A stretch of 64,000 bases of DNA from Bacillaceae bacterium JMAK1 (GTDB taxonomy: Bacteria; Bacillota; Bacilli; Bacillales; Marinococcaceae). This document shows positions 3,366 through 56,080 of this stretch, one piece after another; position 1 is the stretch's first letter, and every line of letters begins with the position of its first letter. Under the pieces are notes generated by a model. The model made no database searches. It had not been told where the DNA came from and saw only the letters and a list, made by a program, of their open reading frames with translations. The DNA lies in NCBI GenBank assembly GCA_012970285.1, contig JIBW01000011.1:124001-188000 (forward strand). Reading direction: 5' to 3'. Made by a program: the position numbers and the translations under genes.

Positions 3366-6080
3366 TTATTCCCCCTGATTAAGCTCTACATATCGATCGA
3401 TTAAAAACTCCATCCGTTTTTCATCCATTTTTTCTTTTCGAAAACCATACGATCGATCTACGGCATTGTTTAGGGCTATATGCACCTTTCGCAATTTTTG
3501 CGGCATCGCAATTGGATCATATAAGTGTGCCAGAGTATTCCCTTGTTCAAAATATTCATTTCGCACATCTAAGATGATCCCAACATGTTTTTCAATTTCT
3601 TTGACTTGTTTATCTGTTGGTTCAGGGAAAGGGAACGTATTGTAGACCAATGTGTTAGAGTAACGATAATCCCCTTTTAATCGCCCAGCGATTGTACGTA
3701 CCCATGCCATATGCATTGAAGAGTTTAGAATACCAAATATATAAGGTGTAGCATTGGGTATCTGAAAAGCTGAATCACTACAAATGCTATCGCTTGTGAA
3801 ATATCCAATTGGGACGTATTCTCGGTTTTCAGAGGTAACTCTAGGGATTACCAAAAAATCATCTTCAGAGACTCTATTTTCTGGAAACTCACGAGGGTAT
3901 TGAGCCCATCTTACAGTCGCCTTCTTAGTGCTTTTTAACCGAAAAGCTCTAACCGCCTCCATCAACTCTTTTACTTTCGGCATTCTTTGCAATTCATTTG
4001 GAGGACAATACTTTAAATAAAGACAATATCTACGTCTATCATTGATGAGCTCTGAAGCGCCTATCCACTTGCGAAAATACTTTTCAGAAAGGGGCTCTTT
4101 ATTGATAAAATCAATCATTTCATCTTCGTTAAAAAGATAATTTCCATTATCAACTGGAGAGCTACCTTTGATCATCTTTGGAACATCCGAGAGTGTGTCA
4201 TTTATTTTCTGGATAATGATTGTTTCAGCATCAACTAAATAATGGTTAATATTTCTAGCACTAACTAAGGTTGGTTCCCCATTAATATCCGGATAGGTGA
4301 ATAAGTGTTTTTTTCGATGTCTATCCTTACTAAACCCAACAATTACACAGTAAACAACTGCCTTACCCTTAGCTTCACTATTCCAACGAAAGGTTTGATG
4401 TGCAAATTCAATGACCATACCTTTTCGCTTTAAAATATATTTCCATAAAGTATTTGCTTGTTGTCCCTGAACAATGGAGTTTGTGCCAACAAAAGCAACC
4501 CTTGTTTTTGTTCCTTGTATAACGTCAACAGCCTTAATAAACCATGCAGCAACGAAATCTAATTGTCCGGTGGGGACCCCAATACTCTTAAAAATGTGCT
4601 TTGCATCACTTTTTTGTTCTGGTGTCATATATGAAGAGCCTACAAATGGAGGATTTCCAAATATATAAGAAGCTTCCCTTCCTTTTAAAACCTCTTTCCC
4701 CCAATCAAGCAGCAATGCATTTCCGTGTACAACATTTGGAGACCTACGAAGGGGTAGACGAATCATATACTGTCCAAATTCCTCACTGATCATCATATTC
4801 ATTTGGTGATCAATGATCCACATGGCTACTTGAGTAACTTGTGCAGAGAAGTCTTCTATTTCGATGCCATAAAATTGATCAACGTCAATTCGGACCATAT
4901 CATCGATGTTTAGCAAAATCCTATCATCCAATAAATCTCGAATAATTTCTTTTTCAAGCATACGTATTTCACGATAAGTAATAATTAAAAAGTTTCCACA
5001 CCCACAAGCAGGGTCAAAAAAAGTTAGTTTTGAAAGATCCTCATGAAAGGACCGGACACGTTTTTGATTCCCTTTGATGGATTTGAACTTCGCCCAAAGT
5101 TCATCTAAAAACAAAGGTTTAATCACTTTCATAATGTTCTCTTCACTTGTATAATGGGCTCCAAGAGTACGGCGTGCATCGGGATTCATCACATTTTGGA
5201 AGAGTGATCCGAAAACTGCAGGTGATATTTTCCCCCAATCCATCTTTGATGTATCAAGTAGAAGTTCCCGCATTTCACGATCAAAGTTTGCAATTCTTAA
5301 CTGCTCTTCAAACAATCTCCCATTTACGTATGGAAAACCCTGCAACGATTCATTCAGATTTGATTGGCGTTTATCGACGGATGTATTTAACAGTTGATAA
5401 ATTTGACTAATATGTATACCTAAATCACTACCATCTTCTTTTGTCTCGTGGAGCAAGTAGTCTCTAAAGTAGTTCTTATCAAAAATACCTGTGTCATCAG
5501 CAAACAAACAAAATAACAGGCGGACAAGATAAACTTCTAAATCATGTCCTGTATATCCAACAGTCTTCAGCTTGTCGTGAAGGATCGCCATCTGCTCTGC
5601 TGCTTGAATGTTGACCGGATCCCGCTCAGTAATTTCTTGTTTTTGGTATCCAGCCATAAAACCAAATAATTCAATATTCTGGGGTAATTGATCCAACCTA
5701 AAGTTTCGCTCTCCCCCATTATCTAAATCGTAAAGTCGAAAGTTCTCAAAATCTGAAACAAGTATGTACTGAGGTAAATCGGACTCACGGATACCCGGAA
5801 AGTAGTCTCGAGCCTGATTATATGCTTTATCTAAATCCCTTCCTTTTGACTTATGCTCGACCAGTAACTTGCTACGCCAAAGCAGATCAACATATCCATG
5901 TCCTTCTTGCATATTTACTCGTTCTTCAAAAGTGGCCACTCGTCTTCTACTAACGCCAAATACATGAAAAAATTGATCCCAGAAGCTCTTTGCCTCAGCA
6001 TGCTCACTGGATTCATTTTTCCACTCATTCGCAAAAGCGATCGCACGAGAACGAATTTCATTCCAACTTAGTGTAGTCAT
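3366..6080 (-). CDS. MmeI-like (type IIL/IIG) restriction-modification enzyme
   Basis: A single 904-residue polypeptide carries nuclease, methyltransferase and specificity parts, as in MmeI (about 920 residues). Near the N-terminus, Asp65 in HGYVDLL and E75-H-K77 in LLVEHKSKG form a PD-(D/E)xK nuclease site. SAM-binding motif I DPACGCGNF lies at 356-364 and the adenine N6-methylation motif NPPF at 476-479. The remainder to 904 would hold the target-recognition region. Family knowledge: these enzymes methylate one strand of a short asymmetric site and cut about 20 bases away, and need no separate methylase. All key residues are present and the frame is unbroken, so it is probably active. The start precedes MTTLSWNEI; the upstream region to 6250 is gene-free. 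Confidence 0.85.
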   Translation of the reverse strand: MTTLSWNEIRSRAIAFANEWKNESSEHAEAKSFWDQFFHVFGVSRRRVATFEERVNMQEGHGYVDLLWRSKLLVEHKSKGRDLDKAYNQARDYFPGIRESDLPQYILVSDFENFRLYDLDNGGERNFRLDQLPQNIELFGFMAGYQKQEITERDPVNIQAAEQMAILHDKLKTVGYTGHDLEVYLVRLLFCLFADDTGIFDKNYFRDYLLHETKEDGSDLGIHISQIYQLLNTSVDKRQSNLNESLQGFPYVNGRLFEEQLRIANFDREMRELLLDTSKMDWGKISPAVFGSLFQNVMNPDARRTLGAHYTSEENIMKVIKPLFLDELWAKFKSIKGNQKRVRSFHEDLSKLTFFDPACGCGNFLIITYREIRMLEKEIIRDLLDDRILLNIDDMVRIDVDQFYGIEIEDFSAQVTQVAMWIIDHQMNMMISEEFGQYMIRLPLRRSPNVVHGNALLLDWGKEVLKGREASYIFGNPPFVGSSYMTPEQKSDAKHIFKSIGVPTGQLDFVAAWFIKAVDVIQGTKTRVAFVGTNSIVQGQQANTLWKYILKRKGMVIEFAHQTFRWNSEAKGKAVVYCVIVGFSKDRHRKKHLFTYPDINGEPTLVSARNINHYLVDAETIIIQKINDTLSDVPKMIKGSSPVDNGNYLFNEDEMIDFINKEPLSEKYFRKWIGASELINDRRRYCLYLKYCPPNELQRMPKVKELMEAVRAFRLKSTKKATVRWAQYPREFPENRVSEDDFLVIPRVTSENREYVPIGYFTSDSICSDSAFQIPNATPYIFGILNSSMHMAWVRTIAGRLKGDYRYSNTLVYNTFPFPEPTDKQVKEIEKHVGIILDVRNEYFEQGNTLAHLYDPIAMPQKLRKVHIALNNAVDRSYGFRKEKMDEKRMEFLIDRYVELNQGE

Positions 6081-11990: not shown

Positions 11991-12259
11991 TTAGTTAAGC
12001 TCGTATCCTATGTCTGAATAAGCAGGAATGATGATATAGTTAATCATCGCTCGGGCTTCTTGGTCACTTTCAGCAAGAAGCGGTTCTGCAAAGACGTTTG
12101 TATCTTCGTCTAACATCACTCGGACCGAAGACGACTCATCATTCGATTTTCGAGGCAACACGTTAGTGATGTCATTCCATCACTTGTTTTTTCTGTTAGC
12201 ACCTGGACACCATCACCAAGCGCATAATCTTTCACACCTTTTTGTGTACCTTTACGCAT
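11991..12259 (-). pseudogene. Frameshifted gene overlapping ardC
   Basis: MRKGTQKGVKDYALGDGVQV starts inside the last codons of ardC (8-base overlap), implying translational coupling. After the codons CCLENRMMS the frame ends in TGA; one base over it continues VRVMLDEDTNVFAEPLLAE to PAYSDIGYELN. The copy at 40942-41196 is broken at a different place (a lost T after eight codons). So the ancestral protein of about 89 residues is lost in both blocks. Confidence 0.6.
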
Positions 12260-13139
12260 GTGTCGCCACCTCTTCTTCCGTTGTTACTTCTAATTGGCTA
12301 TCCGCATTCATATAGTCATAGGCTTTTTCCGCTATACTAGCAGCACGAACCAACATCTGAGAGTCATCCTGAAGTTTTTGCATCCAAGACTGAATGTACG
12401 CAGATGTATTCTCAATCGTTTTGTGATCGATTTGTGCGGTGCGACAAAGTAGTGCTGCACCCATCTCCGCGATAAGTTCTTCATACGCATATGCCGTACT
12501 TCCAAACTTATTTTGCAGATTACGATTGAGTCGACTGATATGACCTGTGGAATGTGCCATCTCATGAAACAGCGTGGCATAATATCCTTCGGCATTATGA
12601 AATCGACCAATATCAGGCATCATTACGATATCCTGTTGACTGCTATAGGCTGCTTGTACACCGCTGATCACTTCTGGACGATCCAAATAAGCGTTTAACA
12701 GCTTTTCACAAGCTTCTATGGAATCATGATGACGATGAACGACCACTCGCTTAGGTTCCAACCCTTCGACCTGATGTTCAATGTTAAATACATTCGCGGT
12801 TTTCACCAATGGGATCTGCTTTTTATTTTTTTCTTCACTTTCGTCTTGTTGACTCTCATCATCTGTAATTGTAATCGGCTTGTAGATGAGGATTTTCATG
12901 GCTTTTGACCCTTTTTTGATTGTGCCACCTTCGTCTTTAATCTGCTTGAACGTCGCCCACTCACCGCCCCTAAGAAGCAACTGGTTGAAACCACGGTAAC
13001 GCTTCATCGAGATACGATTGTAGGCGTCGGGAACTGTCCACGGTTTACGCCAAGGTATGTCTCCCTCTTTTAAACGGTCTAAGATAATCTCGACCAAGGA
13101 ATGTACAATTTCTATTGTTGTTGTTCGTTTCTTTTTCAT
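12252..13139 (-). CDS. ardC: ArdC-like anti-restriction protein
   Basis: ArdC proteins bind single-stranded DNA through an N-terminal domain and carry a zinc metallopeptidase-like domain; on plasmids they protect incoming DNA from host restriction. Here residues 1-125 form the N-terminal domain (RLKEGDIPWRKPW, FNQLLLRGGEWATF are typical). HEMAHSTGH at 192-200 is the HExxH zinc site and E220/E221 in YAYEELIAEMGA the third ligand. Length 295 is complete. The start is fixed by GGAAAGGA of leader L2. It lies in an operon of seven small genes, most of them decayed. A copy lacking its first 44 residues is at 41189-41958. Confidence 0.88.
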   Translation of the reverse strand: MKKKRTTTIEIVHSLVEIILDRLKEGDIPWRKPWTVPDAYNRISMKRYRGFNQLLLRGGEWATFKQIKDEGGTIKKGSKAMKILIYKPITITDDESQQDESEEKNKKQIPLVKTANVFNIEHQVEGLEPKRVVVHRHHDSIEACEKLLNAYLDRPEVISGVQAAYSSQQDIVMMPDIGRFHNAEGYYATLFHEMAHSTGHISRLNRNLQNKFGSTAYAYEELIAEMGAALLCRTAQIDHKTIENTSAYIQSWMQKLQDDSQMLVRAASIAEKAYDYMNADSQLEVTTEEEVATHA

Positions 13140-31085: not shown

Positions 31086-31685
31086 TTAACTTTCGTTAAT
31101 TCTTTGGCGAATTTGTTGAAGTAAATTATCACCCCATGTTACTACAGGATGGATGTGCATGATAATTTGTCCGTTTTCGAATGTCGCGAATAGTTCGCCA
31201 TCTTTTCCTGAGTTATCTACGATCATGAGTGTGTCAATAAAATTAAAGTGGCTAAGGAGGTTTTCACGACTAACGGTATGGCGCCGTAAGACATCTTGCT
31301 CTGGAATGTCGTGGCCCCCATTTTCAACTCTTTTAGCGATACGCCTTAAATTAATGGCAACATGGTTAGTTCCTACATAAATGACGACTACTTGGAATCC
31401 TTTGGATTTGGCTTGTTTTATCTGACGTATAGATGTTTTGCTTGCTAATGTGGTTTCAATGGAGAAGTCTTGATTTGATTGAATACATTCATCGACGATC
31501 TGAAGTGCCTCTTTCCCTGCACGGAGCGTAGGGTTTTTAGTTGTTCGATTCTCATGTTTTTTAACTAAGGCATCGGGATCAACATTAATCACCGACCCTA
31601 AATGATCATAAAACATCCCTCTAATGGTACTCTTTCCCGAACCGTTGTTTCCTGCAAAAACATACATAAAGGATTTCGGACTCAT
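31086..31685 (-). CDS. Zeta-type toxin (UDP-sugar kinase fold)
   Basis: Zeta toxins phosphorylate UDP-N-acetylglucosamine and so poison wall synthesis. The 199-residue product has a P-loop GNNGSGKST at 12-20, the sensor segment VINVDPDALVKKH, and the helix-strand FSIETTLASKTSIRQIKQA typical of the family. The stop-start overlap ATGA with the small gene upstream (31682-31855) identifies that gene as the probable antitoxin. The pair probably stabilises the element; the C-terminus is complete. Confidence 0.82.
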   Translation of the reverse strand: MSPKSFMYVFAGNNGSGKSTIRGMFYDHLGSVINVDPDALVKKHENRTTKNPTLRAGKEALQIVDECIQSNQDFSIETTLASKTSIRQIKQAKSKGFQVVVIYVGTNHVAINLRRIAKRVENGGHDIPEQDVLRRHTVSRENLLSHFNFIDTLMIVDNSGKDGELFATFENGQIIMHIHPVVTWGDNLLQQIRQRINES

Positions 31686-35942: not shown

Positions 35943-36477
35943 ATGAAAGTAGAAGGGATACGTAATACCAAAACTAAGCAGTTAATCGAAGAGGCTTTTC
36001 AAGAAATATTAAAAAAGAACGATATTGAATAATATAACGATTAAAAATATTACTGAAAAAGCTAATGTGAACAGAGCTACTTTTTATGCTCATTTTGATG
36101 ATAAATATCAGTTATTTGATGATATGATTTATAAAGCAATTTGTAAGGATATTTACGAAAAAGCTGGGAAATTACAAGAGTTAGATCGTAACCATATCGA
36201 AATTTTGTACACATCTATACATGCGTTTCTAAATACAATAGTAGAGAATTGCCCATATAGTTATATAAAATTGTTTCCTTTATTAAGAATCAAAATGATT
36301 GATGTTCTAAAAATGCATAGTGACTCTAAAACCATTGAAACAGAAATGAAAATGGATTCGTTTAGATCTATAATGATCTCTAGCATGCTTTATGAGGCAG
36401 CAGAAATCTCAATTCTAAAAAAATCAAACCTAAGTCAAAAAGAGTTATTGAAGCAATTAAATAACTTCATCTTTTAA
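35943..36477 (+). pseudogene. TetR-family regulator gene, frameshifted
   Basis: GGAGAG precedes MKVEGIRNTKTKQLIEEAFQ, which ends in a stop after 29 codons. One base over, the HTH continues: NNITIKNITEKANVNRATFY and AHFDDKYQLFDDM, and the ligand domain ends at 36477 (LLKQLNNFIF). It is a complete TetR protein of about 178 residues apart from the single frameshift between helices 1 and 2. Its divergent target (the dehydrogenase) is also lost. Confidence 0.8.
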
Positions 36478-36480
36478 TTG

Positions 36481-36900
36481 CACTTTATGATTTTTCTTTA
36501 GCTAACGGTTAAAGAAAAACTACAACAATCTGGCCCGATTGTTGAAGACTTCTCCAGAAAAGGAGATTCCATCCTTAAAGTAAAATTCTTATATATTATC
36601 CTTGTTTGGAACCATAAAATTGCCAAAAGTAAAAAGAACCATCTCTATGTATGGTGGAGACAGCGGGAGTCAGATAAAGGATAAAATAACAAATGTATTA
36701 TTAACAGGATCCCTTTACTTATCGAGGGGTAACGACTGTAGAGTATAAGTTTCATACATGCTACACCTCATCATAATTAATAAAAGCCAAGCACATTTAT
36801 AACGTAGCAATTTGTCGAAAGTGACGGAAGCTGTGTACAACTCCCTCTCTAACATAATAAAACAGTCTAAATTTTTTGTCACTCAATATCCAGCCCCATA
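36481..36900. other. Gene-free stretch before array 1
   Basis: A hairpin TTTTTCTTTA/TAAAGAAAAA at 36492-36519 could terminate the TetR transcript. No coding frame is supported in the rest. Confidence 0.45.
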
Positions 36901-36931
36901 TTCCTATAACTAACTTTGTTTGTTGCTTATA

Positions 36932-37020
36932 ACGTCTTTAATTTCGTTACATACAATGATTTCAGAGGGAAACGTCTATTCCTCCCGTTGATTCTTAGAC
37001 GCTTCAAATCCCTCTATTTT
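36932..37020 (+). ncRNA. Array 1 unit 1: type-b RNA with sigmaK-like promoter
   Basis: AC at 36932-36933, 16 bases, then CATACAATG (36950-36958). The RNA folds AGAGGG/CCCTCT (outer) and CGTCTA/TAGACG (inner), with loop TTCCTCCCGTTGATTCT. No T-run follows directly. Confidence 0.6.
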
Positions 37021-37039
37021 ACAGATATATATATATATC

Positions 37040-37136
37040 AATGCGACTTTGAATATTCTATAAGTACCACTCCTGTGTGGTAAACCCAAACCATGACTTT
37101 GGGTAAACACGTCTCAATTATTGAGGCGTGTTTTTG
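37040..37136 (+). ncRNA. Array 1 unit 2: type-f RNA
   Basis: TACCAC-TCCTGT-GTGGTA (37065-37082), CCCAAA/TTTGGG (37085-37103), and terminator ACACGTCTCAA/TTGAGGCGTGT with T-run ending 37135. Confidence 0.6.
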
Positions 37137-37140
37137 TTTA

Positions 37141-37243
37141 GGAATGTATATAATTCCACCAATGGGTTAAATTATAATTGCCCACTCCAATTTCCGCGTA
37201 TATGCATACATTGACACGTCTTGTGATGAGACGTGTCTTTTAT
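37141..37243 (+). ncRNA. Array 1 unit 3: type-a RNA
   Basis: The unit (GGGTTAAATTATAATTGCCC, ACTCCAA, then CGCGTATATGCATACA) ends in the perfect stem GACACGTCT/AGACGTGTC (37213-37237) and TTTTA. Four relatives are at 37861, 38440, 50100 and 51345. Confidence 0.6.
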
Positions 37244-37253
37244 TAACACAGTG

Positions 37254-37358
37254 GTATACTTCCTTCAAAACTTGTACATACTTTTAATGTAGCAGCCCTG
37301 CGTATTGTTTTGTTTTCCATCAACTTTGACGCGCCTCTTTGCGAGGCTTGCTTTTTTT
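37254..37358 (+). ncRNA. Array 1 unit 4: type-e RNA
   Basis: GTATACTT (37254-37261), 15 bases, CATACTTTTA (37277-37286); the RNA contains GCAGCCCTGC and ends in GCCTC/GAGGC with seven T (to 37358). Its counterpart at 50699 keeps both boxes and the 15-base spacing. Confidence 0.65.
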
Positions 37359-37458
37359 GTATATTTTATAAGTTATCCCACATACTACAATTGTCTCTCC
37401 CGAGACAATCCCTAGGTTATGATATAGTTGACACGCCTTTACTCTTTGGCGTGTTTTC
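37359..37458 (+). ncRNA. Array 1 unit 5: type-c RNA with TCCC loop
   Basis: GTATATT (37359-37365), 15 bases, CATACTACA (37381-37389). The RNA begins with ATTGTCTC-TCCC-GAGACAAT (37390-37409) and ends in ACACGCC/GGCGTGT plus TTTT (37431-37457). Counterpart at 50800-50902. Confidence 0.68.
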
Positions 37459-37529
37459 ATTTTCTAATAAAGCCGCGGAACCTTGATCCGAGGCTTCTTA
37501 TGTAAAAACCACTACCCCAAACTAATTGG

Positions 37530-37622
37530 TATATATTAATATAAATTGGACACCATATTACTAAGGTTCGTCCATGAACCTGTATCAATTCTGCGGGCAC
37601 GTTCTTTTGAGCGTGCCTTTCA
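37530..37622 (+). ncRNA. Array 1 unit 6: type-d RNA with TCC loop
   Basis: TATATT (37532-37537), 16 bases, CATATTACTA (37554-37563). The RNA begins with AGGTTC-GTCCAT-GAACCT (37564-37581) and ends in GGCACG/CGTGCC with TTT (37596-37620). A further hairpin with AAGCC/GGCTT arms lies upstream at 37470-37498. Confidence 0.65.
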
Positions 37623-37711
37623 CATTAAAATTTTAGGACGCATATACTGAAATTGTGGAGGGAAACATCTACTATTCCCCTAAAATTTTAGATGCTCCAA
37701 AGCCCTCCACA
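37622..37711 (+). ncRNA. Array 1 unit 7: type-b RNA with sigmaK-like promoter
   Basis: AC at 37622-37623, 17 bases, CATATACTG (37641-37649). Outer stem TGTGGAGGG/CCCTCCACA (37654-37662 with 37703-37711), inner CATCTA/TAGATG, loop containing TTCCCC. The inner stem differs from unit 1 by a compensated G-C to A-T pair. Confidence 0.68.
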
Positions 37712-37723
37712 TTAATTTATAAT

Positions 37724-37954
37724 GTATATTCCGCTGTAATTTTGTAAATTATATTAATGCCTCTCTCTTAGCAGTCTTACGTAATGATATTGTGGTTGGA
37801 CACGTCTCTTCATTAAAATAAGACGTGTCTTTTTATTGTAACGATGTGCGATATGTAAAACTTCAATAATGGGCTAAATTATTAATGTCCACTCCAAAAC
37901 CCGCATAAATGTATACATCACCTTACACGTCCCATTACGGGGCGTGCTTTTTTC
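37724..37954 (+). ncRNA. Array 1 units 8-9: type-g and type-a RNAs
   Basis: GTATATT (37724-37730) and TTATATTAAT lead a type-g unit that ends in GACACGTCT/AGACGTGTC (37799-37829) with T-run. A type-a unit follows, ending in CACGTCCC/GGGGCGTG (37926-37946) and six T. Confidence 0.6.
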
Positions 37955-37963
37955 TTTATCGAC

Positions 37964-38100
37964 ACATTTTAATTAATAACGCATACCATGATTTTGAAGG
38001 GTGAGGTCTGACCCCCCTATTAAAATTAGACGCTTTATCCCTTTACTAAAATTAATGTATTACCCCTGTAACCTTATTGAAAGTTACAGGGGGCTATTTT
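37964..38100 (+). ncRNA. Array 1 unit 10: type-b RNA and terminator
   Basis: AC at 37964-37965, 16 bases, CATACCATG (37982-37990). Outer stem AAGGG/CCCTT (37997-38043), inner GTCTGA/TTAGAC, loop CCCCCCTATTAAAA. A strong stem CCCCTGTAAC/GTTACAGGGG follows at 38063-38092 and may also terminate the minus-strand gene beyond it. Confidence 0.65.
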
Positions 38101-38105
38101 GACGA

Positions 38106-38273
38106 TTAAGCTACAGGTCCTGTAGGTCCAGTAACTTCAGGTGGAGTATCTCCGTCTCCATACGGAGTACGATTGATTAAGTTGTTATTAATAACAATCA
38201 ACCCACATTTATCTTCCTTTTTATGACAAGGCTTTTTTCGTTTTTTGTGGAATAAATGATCAAATTCACTCAT
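38106..38273 (-). CDS. Small spore-type protein with collagen-like end
   Basis: This 55-residue product (MSEFDHLFHKKRKKPCHKKE, DKCGLIVINNN) ends with the collagen-like GPTGPVA. GGAGGTGACGTC precedes the ATG. Lys/His/Cys-rich N-terminus with a Gly-Pro-Thr tail is typical of small coat or exosporium proteins; this is inference. It is embedded within array 1, opposite in direction. An upstream minus-strand frame (MIGLINLGQTQ) overlapping its ribosome binding site may be a leader peptide. Confidence 0.62.
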   Translation of the reverse strand: MSEFDHLFHKKRKKPCHKKEDKCGLIVINNNLINRTPYGDGDTPPEVTGPTGPVA

Positions 38274-38403
38274 GACGTCACCTCCAAATTGTAGATACGA
38301 CCATCATATACAGCAACATAAAAATATGACTCTGCGTTTGACCTAAATTAATGAGTCCAATCATTTAATTATGTTTTGCATATATTTGAATATCACCTCC
38401 AGT

Positions 38404-38437
38404 GACCGAGAGCAAATTTTGTTTTCGGTTATTTTTT
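38404..38437 (+). terminator. Hairpin with T-run inside array 1
   Basis: ACCGA and TCGGT flank an AT-rich loop and ATTTTTTA follows on the plus strand. It separates the embedded gene from the last array unit. Confidence 0.45.
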
Positions 38438-38439
38438 AG

Positions 38440-38657
38440 TTTTATGTATAATCACTAGTAGTCCAGGTTATCTTATGGATGTTCACTCCTAGTCCCCACA
38501 TAAATATATACATCAACCTTTACACGCCTCTTAAGAGGCGTGCTCTTTTTGTGTGTTATCTGAGTTTCTATTTACATATTATCTTAGTATCCTACGGCAT
38601 TAGGGTTATACGAAATCTTCCCTCTTTTTTGCGCATTCACCTGAGTGCGCCTTTTTT
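38440..38657 (+). ncRNA. Array 1 last unit (type-a) and end hairpin
   Basis: The type-a unit (GTTCACTCCTAGTCCCCAC, ATAAATATATACATCA) ends in the palindrome CACGCCTCTTAAGAGGCGTG (38523-38542) with T-run. A further hairpin GCGCA/TGCGC with six T is at 38631-38657; its counterpart in array 2 is GAGCC/GGCTC at 51511-51540. Confidence 0.6.
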
Positions 38658-39741
38658 ACGTGACGAATTGTAAAATCAAGTGCAACACCTAAAAATAAAG
38701 ACAGCTCATGACAGCCTTGTGTAAGATGGATTGTAACCACACAAATACACCTACGGAGGCTTTGTCATGAGCTATCAACATCTTACCACATCACATTTGA
38801 ACGAGCGCGTATTGAAACGCTACAGAAAATAGGATATTCCATGCGGAAAATCTCCGATGAACTAAGAAGAAGTCCTTCCACGATATCAAGGGAGCTTCGT
38901 CGCAATACTGTCGTTACTCAAGAATACCGTTCTGAGATCGCACAAGACATCGCTCATAAGCGGCGCCTGGCCTGTCGCCCTGATGGGAAGTGGAGTCCTG
39001 AGCTCGCTCGGATTATACAAGAAAAGCTAGATCAAACGTGGTCTCCAGAGCAGATTGTATATCGTCTATTTTTTGAAACGTTATCTTTCAAGACCTTGTA
39101 CAGATGGCTTTATCAAGGGTTTCTCGAACGTAATGTTCACGTCCTGCGCCACAAGGGGAAACGTCAGAAACCAAAAGAAACACGTGGGCGTTTTAACATC
39201 GGTACTACCATTCAAAAGCGACCGAAAGATTCGAAAACGCGAAACATTTGGTCATTGGGAACTCGATACGGTCGTTTCGAGCCGTGGAAAAGTAAAGGTT
39301 GTATGGCTACGTTTATTGAGCGCAAGACACGTTGGTATATCGTCTTTAAGATGCCGAATCGTACGGCAGCTTCTATGGAGTCAGCCATTAAAAGCTTGCA
39401 TACGTTACTGCCGTCCGTAGGCGTCCGTAGCGTTGAAAACAGCGACCGTGGACCGAGGAAAAGAATTTGCGTGCTATTCAAGGATCGAAGCCGATCTCCC
39501 ACGCATCTATTTCGCAGATGCTTATTCGTCTTGGCAACGTGGGAGTAATGAGAATGCCAATGGTCTTCTGCGCGAGTTCTTTCCGAAAGCATATGATTTA
39601 AGTCTTGTATCTGAGGGAGAAATGGAGAATGCCCTTCGTTTAATTAATGGACGCCCACGCAAATGTTTAAATTGGAAAACGGCGCACGAGGCTTTTCAAC
39701 ATGAACTGTTGCACTTAGATTGACAAACCGTCACGTAAAAA
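38650..39741 (+). mobile_element. Inactive IS30-family element
   Basis: The ends carry inverted repeats of about 35 bases with inner part TTGTnAAnTCnAAGTGCAAC and outer part TTTTTTACGTGACG (38650-38687 and 39707-39741). The transposase (38767-39723) shows the IS30 helix-turn-helix (MRKISDELRRSPSTISRELR), the DDE core (ETFGHWELDTV, TVDRGKEFA) and C-terminal GSNENANGLLREFF, but in at least four different frames. It inserted directly at the end of array 1. Confidence 0.85.
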
Positions 39742-39818: not shown

Positions 39819-40358
39819 TTAATTCCGTTCTTCGTATTCTTCTTTCCGATCTTCATGAAGCTGGAATGGACGATCTGTTATTTTATCTCCTACGAACAAC
39901 GGAGCATCAATTTCTTCCCCATTGACAAGTATTTGCGTGGATTCATAACCAAATTCCATCATAATAAGTCCTACTTGCTCTTGAAACGCATCATTAAATG
40001 GTAAATGATAGTCGATATCATACAATTCTTCAGAAAAAGAAACAACAGCGACTCCATCATCGTTCTCCTGCACGTACTCAACTTCAACTCCTAGAGAAAC
40101 AAGAATATCTCCCACTCCATGATCAGGGTCGCTTGCCCAAGTATGAATGGCAGCCCAATACAACTCATCTTCTTCAGCAGCATAAATCGTGGTATTCTCT
40201 TTAAATCTAGAATCGACTTCTTTTATGTCTTCTGAGTAGTAAAGATACACGGTTTCATTAATAGCATCCTCTTCAACAGAGGAAGCTTCAACATCCTGAC
40301 CCCTCCATTTTATCGATTGTATCACATTATTTAATGACCCTGTATCTCTTAAAATCAT
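39819..40358 (-). CDS. GerMN-domain protein, probably N-terminally truncated
   Basis: The 179-residue product contains two blocks typical of GerMN domains (ETVYLYYSEDIKEVDSRF, GVAVVSFSEELYDIDY and VGLIMMEFGYESTQILVNGE), found in GerM, a spore germination and septal protein, and in sporulation lipoproteins. A signal peptide or lipobox is missing and there is no ribosome binding site at the first ATG, so the 5' end is probably lost near 40360, possibly through the rearrangement that brought in the ArdC block. It follows the IS30 element. Confidence 0.6.
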   Translation of the reverse strand: MILRDTGSLNNVIQSIKWRGQDVEASSVEEDAINETVYLYYSEDIKEVDSRFKENTTIYAAEEDELYWAAIHTWASDPDHGVGDILVSLGVEVEYVQENDDGVAVVSFSEELYDIDYHLPFNDAFQEQVGLIMMEFGYESTQILVNGEEIDAPLFVGDKITDRPFQLHEDRKEEYEERN

Positions 40359-40941: not shown

Positions 40942-41196
40942 TTAGTTAAGCTCGTAGCCTACATCTGAATAAGCAGGGATGATGATATAGTTAATTATCG
41001 CTCGGGCTTCTTGGTCACTTTCTGCAAGAAGCGGTTCTGCAAAGACGTTAGTAAAATCACTCGTGATAAGACGGCTCATCATTCGATTTTCGATGCAACA
41101 GGTTAGTGAAGTCATTCCATTACTTGTTTTCTGTTAGCAGATGGACACCATCTCCAAGTGCATAATCTTTCACACCTTTTGTGTACCTTTACGCAT
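40942..41196 (-). pseudogene. Second copy of the gene overlapping ardC, broken
   Basis: MRKGTQKV is followed by a stop because one T of a run is missing relative to 12241. The rest (TNVFAEPLLAESDQEARA and PAYSDVGYELN) can be followed in other frames, with an additional short deletion near 41060. Confidence 0.6.
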
Positions 41197-41958
41197 GTGT
41201 CGCCACCTCGTCTTCCATCGTTACTTCCAATTGGCTATCCGCATTCATATAGTCATAGGCTTTTTCCGCTAAACTAGCAGCACGAACCAACATTTGGGGA
41301 TCACCCTGAAGCTTTTGCAACCAGGACTGAATGTACGCAGATGTATTCTCAATCGTTTTATGATCGATTTGTGCGGTTCGACACAGTAGTGCTGCACCCA
41401 TCTCCGCGATAAGTTCTTCATACGCATATGCCGTACTTCCAAACTTATTTTGCAAATTGCGATTGAGTCGATTAACATGCCCTGTGGAATGCGTCAACTC
41501 ATGGAACAGCGTGGCATAGTATCCTTCAGCGGTATTGAATTTTCCGCTATCAGGCATCATAACGACATCTAATTGACTACTATAGGCTGCTTGTACACCG
41601 TTGATCACCTCGGGACGATCCGAATAAGCGTTTAACAACTGTTCGCAAGCATTAATGGAGCTATGATGTTGATGAACGATCACACGCTTAGGTTCCAATC
41701 CTTCAACTTGATGTTCGATGTTAAATACATTCGCTGCCTTGACCAATGGGATTATCTTTTCGTTATTTTCTTCTCTTTCGTCTTGTTGACTGTCATCTTC
41801 TTTGATCGTAATTGGCTTGTAGATGAGAATTTTCATTGCTTTTGACCCTTTTATGATGGTGCCACCTTCATCTTTGATCTGCTTAAACGTCGCCCACTCA
41901 CCGCCCCCAAGAATCAATTGATTAAAACCACGATAACGCTCCATCGAGATGCGATTAT
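41189..41958 (-). pseudogene. ardC: ArdC-like gene lacking its 5' end
   Basis: From the codons NNRISMERYRGFNQLILGG to the stop this matches ArdC at 12252-13139 with about 85% identity. It includes HELTHSTGH (the HExxH zinc site with Met changed to Leu and Ala to Thr) and YAYEELIAEMG. Upstream of 41958 the sequence is unrelated, so the first 44 residues, the leader and the three upstream genes were deleted. The internal ATG (MERYRGF) has no ribosome binding site. Confidence 0.78.
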
Positions 41959-49889: not shown

Positions 49890-50256
49890 ATTACTAACTC
49901 CTTTTTAATAAATTTAATGTTTCTTAAAGTAAAAGTTTAGCCAAATATTCTGATTCTACAATTATCTAGAGTCATGTCAAAAATATCAAGATATTAATTT
50001 TTATTATCGATAAGATCTAAGACAATAATTGATGCTCTTAGAATCATAACTTCATGATAATGATTATTATACGTCTTATCTTATTGAGGCGCTTTTTATA
50101 TAACAATGTAAATAATATCAATAACAATAACGGGTAAATTTATTAATGAAAATTCCAAATCTTGCATAAATGTATGTACCAACGTTAACACATCCTTTCA
50201 TGACGCGTGCTTTTTCGTATCTGTTGCATATATTCCTACTCAAGGCAAAAGGAACG

Positions 50257-50346
50257 TTACATTGTAAACTCTCCTTTTGCATACTTTCCTTGACGTTCAT
50301 ATTCCTGGTTTTGTTCTTGAGTCCGTTCTTCTCCACTCTTGATCAT
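50257..50346 (-). CDS. 29-residue microprotein in array 2
   Basis: MIKSGEERTQEQNQEYERQG and a Lys/Glu-rich end (KYAKGEFTM) follow GGAGGTGC, 7 bases from the ATG. It is hydrophilic, Gln/Glu rich, and recalls very small spore proteins in composition. It is embedded in array 2 in the same relative orientation as the 55-residue gene in array 1, though the two proteins are unrelated. Confidence 0.5.
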   Translation of the reverse strand: MIKSGEERTQEQNQEYERQGKYAKGEFTM

Positions 50347-50574: not shown

Positions 50575-50695
50575 GTGACCATTGTATAATTTCAATAAAA
50601 ATGCAAGCTATATAAATGCCACTCCTGTGTGATAACCCTAAATCATGACAATAAGTAGATATCCCTCAGGCATTGAGGCGTGTTTATTTTATAAA
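50575..50695 (+). ncRNA. Array 2 type-f RNA
   Basis: CCAC-TCCTGT-GTG (50619-50632) corresponds to the TCCTGT hairpin of array 1; the terminator-like CCTCA/TGAGG (50665-50679) is followed by GCGTGTTTATTTT. Confidence 0.55.
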
Positions 50696-50698
50696 CTT

Positions 50699-50799
50699 GT
50701 ATACTTCCTGAAGAACTTGTACATAATATTACTACAGCAGCCCTTTGTTTTGCTCTCGCATCAACCTTGACACGTCTCATTATGAGACGTGCTTTTTTC
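50699..50799 (+). ncRNA. Array 2 type-e RNA
   Basis: GTATACTT (50699-50706), 15 bases, CATAATATTA (50722-50731), GCAGCCC, and the terminator CACGTCTCA/TGAGACGTG with six T (50771-50798). Confidence 0.65.
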
Positions 50800-50902
50800 G
50801 TATATTTTATAACTTATTCCACAAACTACAAACGTCTCTCCCGAGACACATTTCTAAGTTATGATACTTAGTTGACACACCTTAACTTCTTGGAGTGTTT
50901 TC
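50800..50902 (+). ncRNA. Array 2 type-c RNA with TCCC loop
   Basis: GTATATT (50800-50806), 15 bases, CAAACTACA (50822-50830), hairpin GTCTC-TCCC-GAGAC (50834-50847), terminator ACACACC/GGAGTGT plus TTTTC. A separate hairpin AGTCTTGGA/TTCCAAGACT with loop CCTCATG follows at 50917-50943. Confidence 0.65.
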
Positions 50903-51029
50903 TTTATAAACAATTAAAGTCTTGGACCTCATGTTCCAAGACTTCATATATAAGAATCACTAACCTACAAATAGTTCCCTTCAAAATTACTGTTATCTTT
51001 ACTATCTGTCAACAAATCTTCCTTTTAAT

Positions 51030-51124
51030 TGGCATATACTGATTCAATTTGGAAACCATTTTAATAAGGTTCCTCCATGAACCTGTATCAAATCTGTGGT
51101 CACGTTTTTTTGAGCGTGCCTTTC
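51030..51124 (+). ncRNA. Array 2 type-d RNA
   Basis: GCATATACT, then CATTTTAATA, hairpin AGGTTC-CTCCAT-GAACCT (51067-51084), and terminator CACG/CGTG with TTT (51101-51123). The loop GTCCAT of array 1 is CTCCAT here while the stem is identical. Confidence 0.6.
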
Positions 51125-51213
51125 ACATTTTATATTTATGGCGCATATCATGATATTGCGGAGGGCAGGTCTAATACTCCCGTTGAGACTTAGACGCCTC
51201 CAGCGCCCTCCGC
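51125..51213 (+). ncRNA. Array 2 type-b RNA with sigmaK-like promoter
   Basis: AC at 51125-51126, 17 bases, CATATCATG (51144-51152). Outer stem GCGGAGGG/CCCTCCGC, inner GTCTAA/TTAGAC, loop TACTCCCGTTGAGAC. Compared with the array 1 copies both stems vary by paired changes. Confidence 0.68.
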
Positions 51214-51224
51214 TTAACTATATT

Positions 51225-51446
51225 GTATACTTACCGTTACGTTCGCACATTATATAAATGCCTCACTTTTAGCCGTTATACTTAATTTTTATGGTTGTAC
51301 ATTGTACACGTCTCACCTTACTTTGGCGTGTTTTTTATATACTGATGTATATAATCTTAATGATGGGTTAATTTATTAATGTCCATTCCAAATCCCGCAA
51401 AAATGTATGTACCAACTTTGGCACGGCTCATATGAGGCGTGCTTTT
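51225..51446 (+). ncRNA. Array 2 type-g and type-a RNAs
   Basis: GTATACTT (51225-51232), 15 bases, CATTATATA (51248-51256) lead the type-g unit ending near 51337 with GGCGTGTTTTTT. The type-a unit follows and ends with CACGGCTCATATGAGGCGTG (51422-51441) and TTTTTG. Confidence 0.6.
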
Positions 51447-51899
51447 TGTGTCTGTTTACATATGTTATCTAAGTACCCTTGTATTAGGATACCTGATATT
51501 TCCCCTCATTGAGCCCGCTATTGTTTGCAGGCTCTTTTTTAAGCTACTACTGCCATACATCTTCATGATTGTCTATCGTTCGCTTCTATCTCTTTGCTAT
51601 AGGATTCGTGTACCTATTGCCGTAGATCGTAAAATCAACATACAAAATCTAATGTATTGTAATTCTGAAATAAAGGTTCAATAATAACATCTTTCTAAAC
51701 CAAATTTGAACTGAGTTAAAAGAATCAGTTTTGAAAAAAGTAAGCATTACATGCTAGATCGATAAGAATTATATTCATTACAATTATATTAGGTAACTTT
51801 GTTAACTTTATCCACTCTCCCTGTTGTTGAGAACATAGAACATTAAGATTATGTAAACATCTATTTGTAAAGTTTGACTTATAAAATTTAAGGATATAT

Positions 51900-55412: not shown

Positions 55413-55856
55413 TTACCTATTTGTTAAGAAATACAAGAACCAAACAGCATGTTGTTGTTCATCTAATGCTGCACGACTAAAAATTCTTTTGACTTCCAAA
55501 TCACTCGAACGATCAGATGCTTTATTATAAAAATCAACAGTATTCTGTTCATCTTTAAAGGCAGATAGTATATCTTCACTATAACTTGAAGGACAAGGTT
55601 CTGTTATTTGTGCTTGGGGCTGTTGCCCAGTTAACCTTGTGTATGCTTTTGACAGGTCATTAAAGTGCTCAATTTCATCATTTCGAATCTCCACAATCTG
55701 ATTTCGAGTCATATCATCAGGTGCTCTATTAGCGATTTGTTCGTAGCATTGAATCGCACTATATTCTCCATTAATCGCTGTTTGAAGATCAGTAAGAGTT
55801 TCCTGAGACACTCGATTTTGATAAACCATTCCTCGATTATACGGATAATACAACAT
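55413..55856 (-). CDS. Ferritin-like (rubrerythrin-type) protein
   Basis: I take the ATG at 55856 (MLYYPYNRG) because AAAGGAG stands 5 bases before it. The 147-residue protein is a four-helix bundle with carboxylate/His motifs in repeat: INGEYSAIQCYE, EIRNDEIEHFNDL, FKDEQNTVDFYN and LDEQQHAVWFLY, as in ferritin-like di-iron proteins associated with spores and coats. The two ExxH-type motifs (EIEH and EQQH) would provide the metal site. It lies among sporulation-type genes near the mnx operon. Confidence 0.72.
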   Translation of the reverse strand: MLYYPYNRGMVYQNRVSQETLTDLQTAINGEYSAIQCYEQIANRAPDDMTRNQIVEIRNDEIEHFNDLSKAYTRLTGQQPQAQITEPCPSSYSEDILSAFKDEQNTVDFYNKASDRSSDLEVKRIFSRAALDEQQHAVWFLYFLTNR

Positions 55857-55859
55857 AAT

Positions 55860-56080
55860 CACTCCTTTTAATTACTGTATGATCCATACATAAAAAAAAT
55901 TAATAAAAATCAAATGACATTACGTATACCTAACCCGAGCATGGGTTAATTTAAAGGTATGCCCGCAATTACTTTTTTACTTAAGTAATATGAATTGAGA
56001 TGATTAGAGAATTAGAGTAATTATTCACCATCACAATTTTTTTATTATAATTTCACATAACTAAAAATTTAGAGGAGAGT
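55860..56080. other. Intergenic stretch
   Basis: No gene or strong hairpin. AT-rich promoter-like sequence upstream of the YetF relic. Confidence 0.35.

Follow-up and report, generated by a model that had tools for sequence, protein, structure and literature searches.

Arrays of putative small RNA genes in Geomicrobium genomes, with sporulation-like promoter boxes on some units

We analyzed a stretch of 64,000 nucleotides (hereafter the window) from Bacillaceae bacterium JMAK1, which covers positions 124,001 to 188,000 of contig JIBW01000011.1 (assembly GCA_012970285.1). The subject of this report is a tandem series of hairpins on the plus strand of the window at 36930-38560, which we call array 1. 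Array 1 consists of 12 elements, and eight types of unit were told apart by comparing copies: three units each of types A and C, and one each of types B1, B2, D, E, F and G. Type A is a nested hairpin, in which GGAGGG...CCCTCC encloses CGTCTA...TAGACG, and it has no T-run. Types B1, B2, C, D, E and G each start with a head that differs from type to type and end in a terminator of a common kind. Type F is a hairpin with a C-rich loop. The coordinates are listed in Table 1.

An earlier note on this DNA had described a plus-strand series of terminator-like hairpins in this interval, and the counts bear it out. A terminator scan found eight sites in array 1, none of which is on the minus strand; both-strand shuffles gave 1.0 ± 1.0. 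A search for the core CACG...CGTG followed by a T-run found seven matches on the plus strand (37108, 37215, 37432, 37598, 37801, 37926 and 38523), where 0.04 were expected from 300 shuffles, and one on the minus strand. Four of the seven core matches are among the eight sites of the scan. With the terminator of type D included, the spacing is about 100-210 bases, except that the last terminator is separated from its neighbour by about 600 bases. Except for types A and F, the array units have their own Rho-independent terminators. The hairpins without a T-run are the three of type A and small ones in types E, F and G.

The same genome holds a second array in the window at 50.1-51.5 kb (array 2), a third array at C1:211.8-212.8 kb (array 3), and a type A unit paired with a type D unit at C4:656 kb (the A+D pair). 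Arrays 2 and 3 and those at three further loci (L022, L023 and L024) are colinear with array 1, and genome G001 has an additional copy of array 1 that is 99% identical. Among the window's own genome (G000), G001 and G002, the identity of the colinear arrays is about 70-87%. This recurrence in other arrays and genomes argues strongly against a chance origin of array 1. Together with the colinearity of the five further arrays and the kept stems of types C and D, it gives good support to the earlier proposal that short RNA units, each terminated on its own, form a clustered family.

A BLAST search of 101 genomes gave matches in five, namely the own genome, G001, G002, G046 and G052, and those in G046 and G052 were short (32 and 47 bases). 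RNA covariance models were built for type A (R1), type D (R2) and type C (R3), without the third chromosomal A+D copy (G001 C4) and without the unit of G003. The unit alignments were made without the 99% identical copy in G001, and the type C alignment without the G001 C1 copy. Among the 29 genomes of the family, the models for A, D and C matched in three, three and four, respectively, all of them of the genus Geomicrobium, whose members are salt- and alkali-loving; under stricter filters, the type A model matched 2 of 397 genomes of the order (G000 and G001). A pattern scan for type D in a genome collection returned three stretches, from Geomicrobium sediminis DSM 25540 and Geomicrobium sp. 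JCM 19038. A search of viral contigs gave a single match, which is this same G. sediminis region (100% along 6.5 kb), and the plasmid and phage collections gave no DNA match. The model for type D also weakly finds units of types C, B2 and G (E 6e-5 to 0.21, with a chance-like minus-strand match at 0.05), which suggests common ancestry of these types or at least a shared terminator. An Rfam search, which the earlier note had suggested, gave no credible match at gathering or relaxed thresholds, and the two relaxed matches (a snoRNA and RsaD) were below their cut-offs.

Several stems have kept their pairing while their bases changed. In the type D alignment, 3 of 14 pairs are changed on both sides and still paired, all three in the terminator stem; in the terminator stem of type C, this is the case for one of seven predicted pairs. 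For type A, 87% of the cells are paired, compared to 32-58% when the strands are slid, and 6 of 15 pairs are changed on both sides, where shuffles gave 2.9. Four of the five aligned copies of type E have a UCCC tetraloop. In type D, AACTTGTACATA (37269-37280) is invariant in all six aligned copies and includes the last part of the spacer that separates the putative promoter boxes, and it is possibly an additional binding site. For the head of type C, the idea of a conserved hairpin was dropped, as the consensus fold does not contain one there.

The earlier note had also stated that the interval has no protein gene. On the plus strand, no open reading frame (ORF) in 36600-38760 is longer than 64 codons. 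The statement needs qualification for the minus strand, where there is a candidate ORF of 55 codons without a Pfam match or a plasmid match. The aligned copies of the units differ by insertions and deletions of one and two bases, which suggests that no reading frame is conserved. A 29-codon ORF with a GGAGG site in array 2 (50257-50346, minus strand) is placed like the 55-codon ORF of array 1 and has no Pfam match. The window contains no tRNA or tmRNA gene.

Table 1. Features of arrays 1 and 2 in window coordinates, with scores of the covariance models R1 (type A), R2 (type D) and R3 (type C)
Feature	Position	Strand	Description
Array 1, type A copy a	36960-37026	+	Nested hairpin AGAGGG..CCCTCT / CGTCTA..TAGACG; R1 76.4 bits (model member)
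Type A copy a, box pair upstream	36932	+	AC-N16-CATACAAT (pattern)
Type B1 unit	37041-37138	+	Head CCACTCCTGTGTGG; terminator 37105-37133; homologous to array 2 50611-50708 and G001 C1
Type C, first copy	37141-37245	+	Terminator 37213-37237; R3 102.9 bits (model member)
Type D unit	37252-37365	+	R2 113.7 bits (model member); invariant AACTTGTACATA
Type D promoter-like pair	37254	+	GTATA-N18-CATACT (pattern search)
Type D terminator, degenerate core	about 37329-37356	+	Scan site 37333-37347 (terminator scan, alignment)
Type E unit	37358-37470	+	TGTATA-N17-CATACTA, sigma-G-like 12/13
Type E hairpins	37390-37409; 37430-37455	+	First with UCCC loop, second the terminator (alignment, fold)
Type F hairpin	37470-37499	+	C-rich loop, no T-run; aligned across four arrays
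Type G unit	37524-37630	+	Hairpin AGGTTCGTCCATGAACCT; terminator GGGCACG..CGTGCC (alignment and consensus fold)
Type A copy b	37653-37719	+	R1 71.0 bits (model member)
Type A copy b, boxes	37619; 37622	+	TTCACA-N18-TATACT; AC-N17-CATA (pattern, promoter scan)
Type B2 unit	37720-37842	+	Head GCCTCTCTCTTAGC; terminator about 37799-37829; five copies aligned
Type C, second copy	37848-37956	+	Terminator 37926-37946; R3 114.4 bits (model member)
Type A copy c	37992-38055	+	AC-N16-CATA upstream at 37964; R1 60.3 bits (model member)
55-codon ORF inside array 1	38106-38273	-	GGAGG ribosome-binding site, GPTGP tail
Type C, third copy	38441-38552	+	Terminator 38523-38542; R3 91.2 bits (model member)
Array 2, type C	50109-50219	+	R3 97.8 bits (model member)
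Array 2, type B1	50600-50690	+	Terminator decayed
Array 2, type D	50697-50806	+	TGTATA-N18-CATAATA; R2 133.6 bits (model member)
Array 2, type E	50791-50915	+	-10 box CAAACTA (alignment)
Array 2, type F hairpin	50915-50946	+	Alignment; terminator scan calls a site on the minus strand
Array 2, type G	51041-51136	+	Alignment
Array 2, type A	51156-51222	+	R1 70.6 bits (model member)
Array 2, type B2	51240-51340	+	Alignment
Array 2, type C, second	51342-51451	+	R3 112.4 bits (model member)

Two kinds of box pair had been put forward as conserved in array 1 and as fitting the mother-cell factors sigma-E and sigma-K. In this form, the statement was not confirmed: the boxes are less frequent than it suggests. 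The pair GTATAYT-N15-CATA has a single match in all of the window, at 37359 (0.10 expected), and the looser form GTATA-N16-18-CATAMT occurs three times (37254, 37359 and 50699; 0.38 expected), only in arrays. The pair AC-N16/17-CATA occurs four times in array 1, where 1.25 were expected (standard deviation 1.12), and three of the four lie directly before type A hairpins; over the window as a whole, the plus strand has 49 such pairs, so that the pair is weak evidence by itself.

Then the units were scored against the consensus sequences of B. subtilis. Since copies of a unit are related, z-scores of groups are inflated, and single sequences were therefore tested with 300 shuffles each and no multiple-test correction; the -10 box of sigma-G was loosened by one letter between the two kinds of test. 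The strongest item is the sigma-E-like -35/-10 pair of chromosomal type A (13/14, p ≤ 0.003 in the two copies scored). Its boxes, GAATATT-N14-CATATAAT, are kept in three genomes, and much of the spacer and upstream sequence differs. Type A of the arrays fits sigma-E (11-12/14, ambiguous), sigma-K and sigma-A alike, and also sigma-G (z 4.4). It fits the sigma-K pattern AC-N15/16-CATANNNTA, yet it fits sigma-E and sigma-A too; the promoter gap of sigma-K is given as 14-16 in PMC517825. Types D and E seem to fit sigma-G/F better than sigma-E, and type D fits the sigma-F/G form TGTATA-N18-CATAATA. For type B2 the match is to sigma-G and is weak (two copies tested, p 0.21 and 0.02), type C gives a weak and inconsistent sigma-F match (z 2.4; p 0.21 in two copies), and types G and B1 have no recognizable promoter pair. 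The link to sporulation sigma factors is supported for some units only, with sigma-E for chromosomal type A and sigma-E or sigma-K for array type A, while types D and E move to sigma-G/F and array type A must be shared with sigma-A.

On both strands of 233 kb, sigma-G sites of at least 12/13 occur twice, in type E of array 1 and type D of array 2, and sigma-E sites of 13/14 occur four times, one of them at chromosomal type A. Genome-wide, TGTATA-N17/18-CATAMTA, a pattern picked after the units were known, gives three matches (two in arrays) against one for a reversed control; the canonical TGAATA form gives one, as does its control, and is not enriched. Two sigma-G pattern matches outside the arrays have no spore gene nearby that could be recognized by eye. 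Another sigma-E-like pair of 13/14 lies directly upstream of a ferritin/rubrerythrin-like gene (55413-55902, minus strand), whose Coat_F match is below the cut-off. As for the factors themselves, sigE and sigG stand side by side in this genome and match NCBIfam equivalog models, and three SASP genes and spoIVA are present.

Five copies were located to prophage-like regions, namely L022/L030, L023, L024, L025 at 3.7 kb, and L094 of G003. All five regions have an endolysin gene, and each copy is convergent with its 3' end at a distance of 0.13 to about 2.2 kb; for L025, the endolysin alone is the basis of the prophage-like call. L030, L024 and L094 also code for a tail protein, and L022 and L023 for holins. 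Among the ORFs adjoining arrays 1-3, inspected by eye and not by search, no endolysin was recognized. The region in G003 carries a single type C unit (L094 4438-4530, minus strand) about 0.5 kb from the genes for tRNA-Thr and tRNA-Asn. In L023, a lone terminator with a CACG-like core (5350-5380, minus strand) lies away from the array and may be another unit.

The A+D pair adjoins the same small ORF in three genomes (L073 4766-5113, L020 2788-3138 and L025 8237-8483). It is followed by glnA in G000 and G001, and in G002 (L025) only the last 57 bases of glnA are left; on the other side of the pair, G002 has a fumarylacetoacetate-hydrolase gene in common with G000. The end of glnA in G002 is possibly the entry site of a prophage. 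The chromosomal type D unit is followed by a terminator-like sequence that recurs behind type D in the prophage-like L022 and behind array units in L023, which looks as if it had moved together with them.

The contig of the window (226 kb) encodes a ParM/Alp7A-like actin and looks plasmid-like. An MmeI-type restriction-modification enzyme, two ArdC-like antirestriction proteins and a zeta-toxin-like protein in the window (as a group, 3366-6080, 12252-13139, 41189-41944 and 31086-31685) fit such a contig. Beside array 1 lies a transposase, IS30-like by our own reading, which is broken into overlapping frames (38841-39723); a relative of 315 codons with HTH_38 and rve domains is found at L019 5017-5964. 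Also nearby are a TetR-type regulator, apparently frame-shifted, with its start and body in different frames (35944-36477), and a Germane-domain protein of the spore germination type (39819-40358, minus strand).

The recurrence, the unit structure, the terminators, some compensatory changes, the convergence with endolysin genes and the promoter-like boxes are read directly from the DNA. From these we infer that the units are transcribed, at certain times, and act by base-pairing. We propose, with about an even chance of being right, that the arrays are tandem small noncoding RNA genes of a mobile, Geomicrobium-specific family, independently terminated and partly under sporulation sigma factors. 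There would be about eight related unit types, each with a Rho-independent terminator of its own (B1, B2, C, D, E and G) or with a stable nested hairpin (A). The arrays may have spread with prophages and a plasmid-like replicon, and the A+D pair would hold one chromosomal site. The RNAs, of about 70-80 nucleotides, would most likely act in trans by pairing of unpaired C/U-rich segments with mRNAs. As a speculation that we consider unlikely, the set may be split by compartment; that is, mother-cell genes (sigma-E, type A) and forespore genes (sigma-F/G, types D and E) would alternate on prophages and the plasmid, and the element would adjust the spore development of the host or secure its own entry into the spore. 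If expressed as predicted, the arrays would form a prophage-borne noncoding regulatory cassette tuned to both compartments of the sporulating cell, in a genus reported to be spore-less, and they offer a ready test of whether mobile elements act on sporulation via small RNAs.

A number of results weigh against this explanation. The genus is described as non-spore-forming, and the genome announcement calls the sporulation genes surprising (PMC4064037). The inflation of the group z-scores and the loosened sigma-G box count here too, as does the lack of a convincing promoter match for types C, G and B1. Four copies of array type A in this genome reach 10-11/12 for sigma-A. Sigma-F sites of at least 9/10 occur 41 times on both strands of the 233 kb, so this consensus is unspecific here. 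The controls were mixed: spoIVA scored 11/14 for sigma-E (p 0.057) and the upstream region of sigG 11/13 for sigma-G, and all three SASP genes failed for sigma-G (9-10/13). The assignment to sporulation sigma factors is therefore suggestive and not settled. In types E and G, none of 22 and none of 15 pairs are changed on both sides. For type A, the number of such pairs was reached by 9 of 500 within-column shuffles and the fraction paired is barely above them (55 of 500 reach it), so that the fold is supported mainly by the slid control. Finally, in a pairing test against 51 translation starts (15 shuffles, no accessibility model), seven of the eight types behaved like shuffles.

Type A alone stood apart in this test (-1.67 vs 0.09 ± 0.86 in shuffles, about 2 standard deviations), and the target mechanism is accordingly put forward as a proposal. 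The test is a weak one and, type A apart, gave no support for a pairing of UCCC motifs with ribosome-binding sites as in LhrC. TCC and CCC together occur 38 times in array 1 against 22 ± 6.8; since 2 of 252 plus-strand windows (array 1 and one at 4250) and 5 of 252 minus-strand windows reach 38, the excess of C-rich motifs is weak. Base-composition skew as a sign of C-rich RNAs was dropped, because 33 of 126 windows are equally skewed.

The units could also be independent small RNAs with no special tie to sporulation, made during growth or prophage induction by sigma-A or a phage-controlled polymerase. We think this rather unlikely. The fit of array type A to TTCACA-N17/18-TATAAT (up to 11/12), the prophage-like location with all five copies convergent with the endolysin gene, and the description of the genus speak for it. 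Sigma-A-type promoters are not in excess, with 7 vs 6.2 expected in array 1, 2 vs 6.7 in array 2 and 4 vs 5.7 in array 3, and for types D, E, C, G and B the sigma-A scores do not exceed those of shuffles (z 1.8 for D, below 1 for the rest; p > 0.2). Furthermore, two genomes have kept the A+D pair at one chromosomal site away from prophage genes.

It is quite unlikely, in our view, that there are no free small RNAs and the array is one long transcript or a transcription insulator, either a run of terminators that blocks read-through from or into the lysis operon or a leader with several attenuators in series. The multi-unit arrays are indeed runs of terminators, and those in prophage-like regions are oriented towards the end of the lysis genes. 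However, the eight sites of array 1 all point in one direction (in array 2, three of the six are on each strand), the 5' portions of types D and E are about as conserved as their stems, and no sizeable plus-strand gene follows array 1 directly before the broken transposase. Least probable of all, we think, are spreading palindromic repeats (REP- or MITE-like DNA) whose resemblance to terminators is accidental and which do nothing as RNA: copies on several replicons, a chimeric-looking unit at L025 3663-3770 and the terminal palindrome common to the unit types agree with them, but the aligned units all have their T-run on the same side, the promoter-like boxes of chromosomal type A outlast their spacer, and the unit order is kept between genomes at about 70-80% identity.

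Among known systems, the proposed small RNA genes resemble CsfG and Bvs196, forespore small RNAs of Bacillus under sigma-F/G, in being small units with forespore-type promoter-like boxes on types D and E. In contrast to these, which PMC9147052 describes as single RNAs, the arrays are heterogeneous and were found in one genus. Little is known about what sporulation small RNAs act on; according to PMC9147052, CsfG has no identified mRNA target, and PMC12456014 groups CsfG with factors that regulate sporulation mRNAs. The latter paper states that 66 of 152 independently expressed RNAs of B. subtilis depend on sporulation sigma factors. The arrays differ from such RNAs in being tandem-clustered and prophage-borne, and among the matches listed in our searches, titles and openings of abstracts mention nothing similar for them.

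LhrC1-5 of Listeria, described in PMC4132741, likewise form a set of repeated small RNAs in a Gram-positive bacterium of low GC content. They have C/U-rich loops, and the UCCC loop of type E recalls them. LhrC is one kind of RNA, which answers envelope stress via LisRK, whereas the arrays have about eight types, sporulation-like promoters and a mobile location. Unlike LhrC, their pairing with ribosome-binding sites is unsupported, except weakly for type A. Among the papers listed as naming Geomicrobium, none has a title on small RNAs, and among the matches listed for tandem or sibling small RNAs with sporulation or prophages, nothing was alike by title. Multicopy and sporulation small RNAs are known kinds, and heterogeneous arrays of them beside prophage genes are, going by these searches, undescribed.

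The arrays also resemble the morons of prophages, being extra units with their own terminators past the lysis genes. Morons usually encode proteins. The array units, in contrast, look noncoding, and their locations include a plasmid-like contig and one site in the chromosome.

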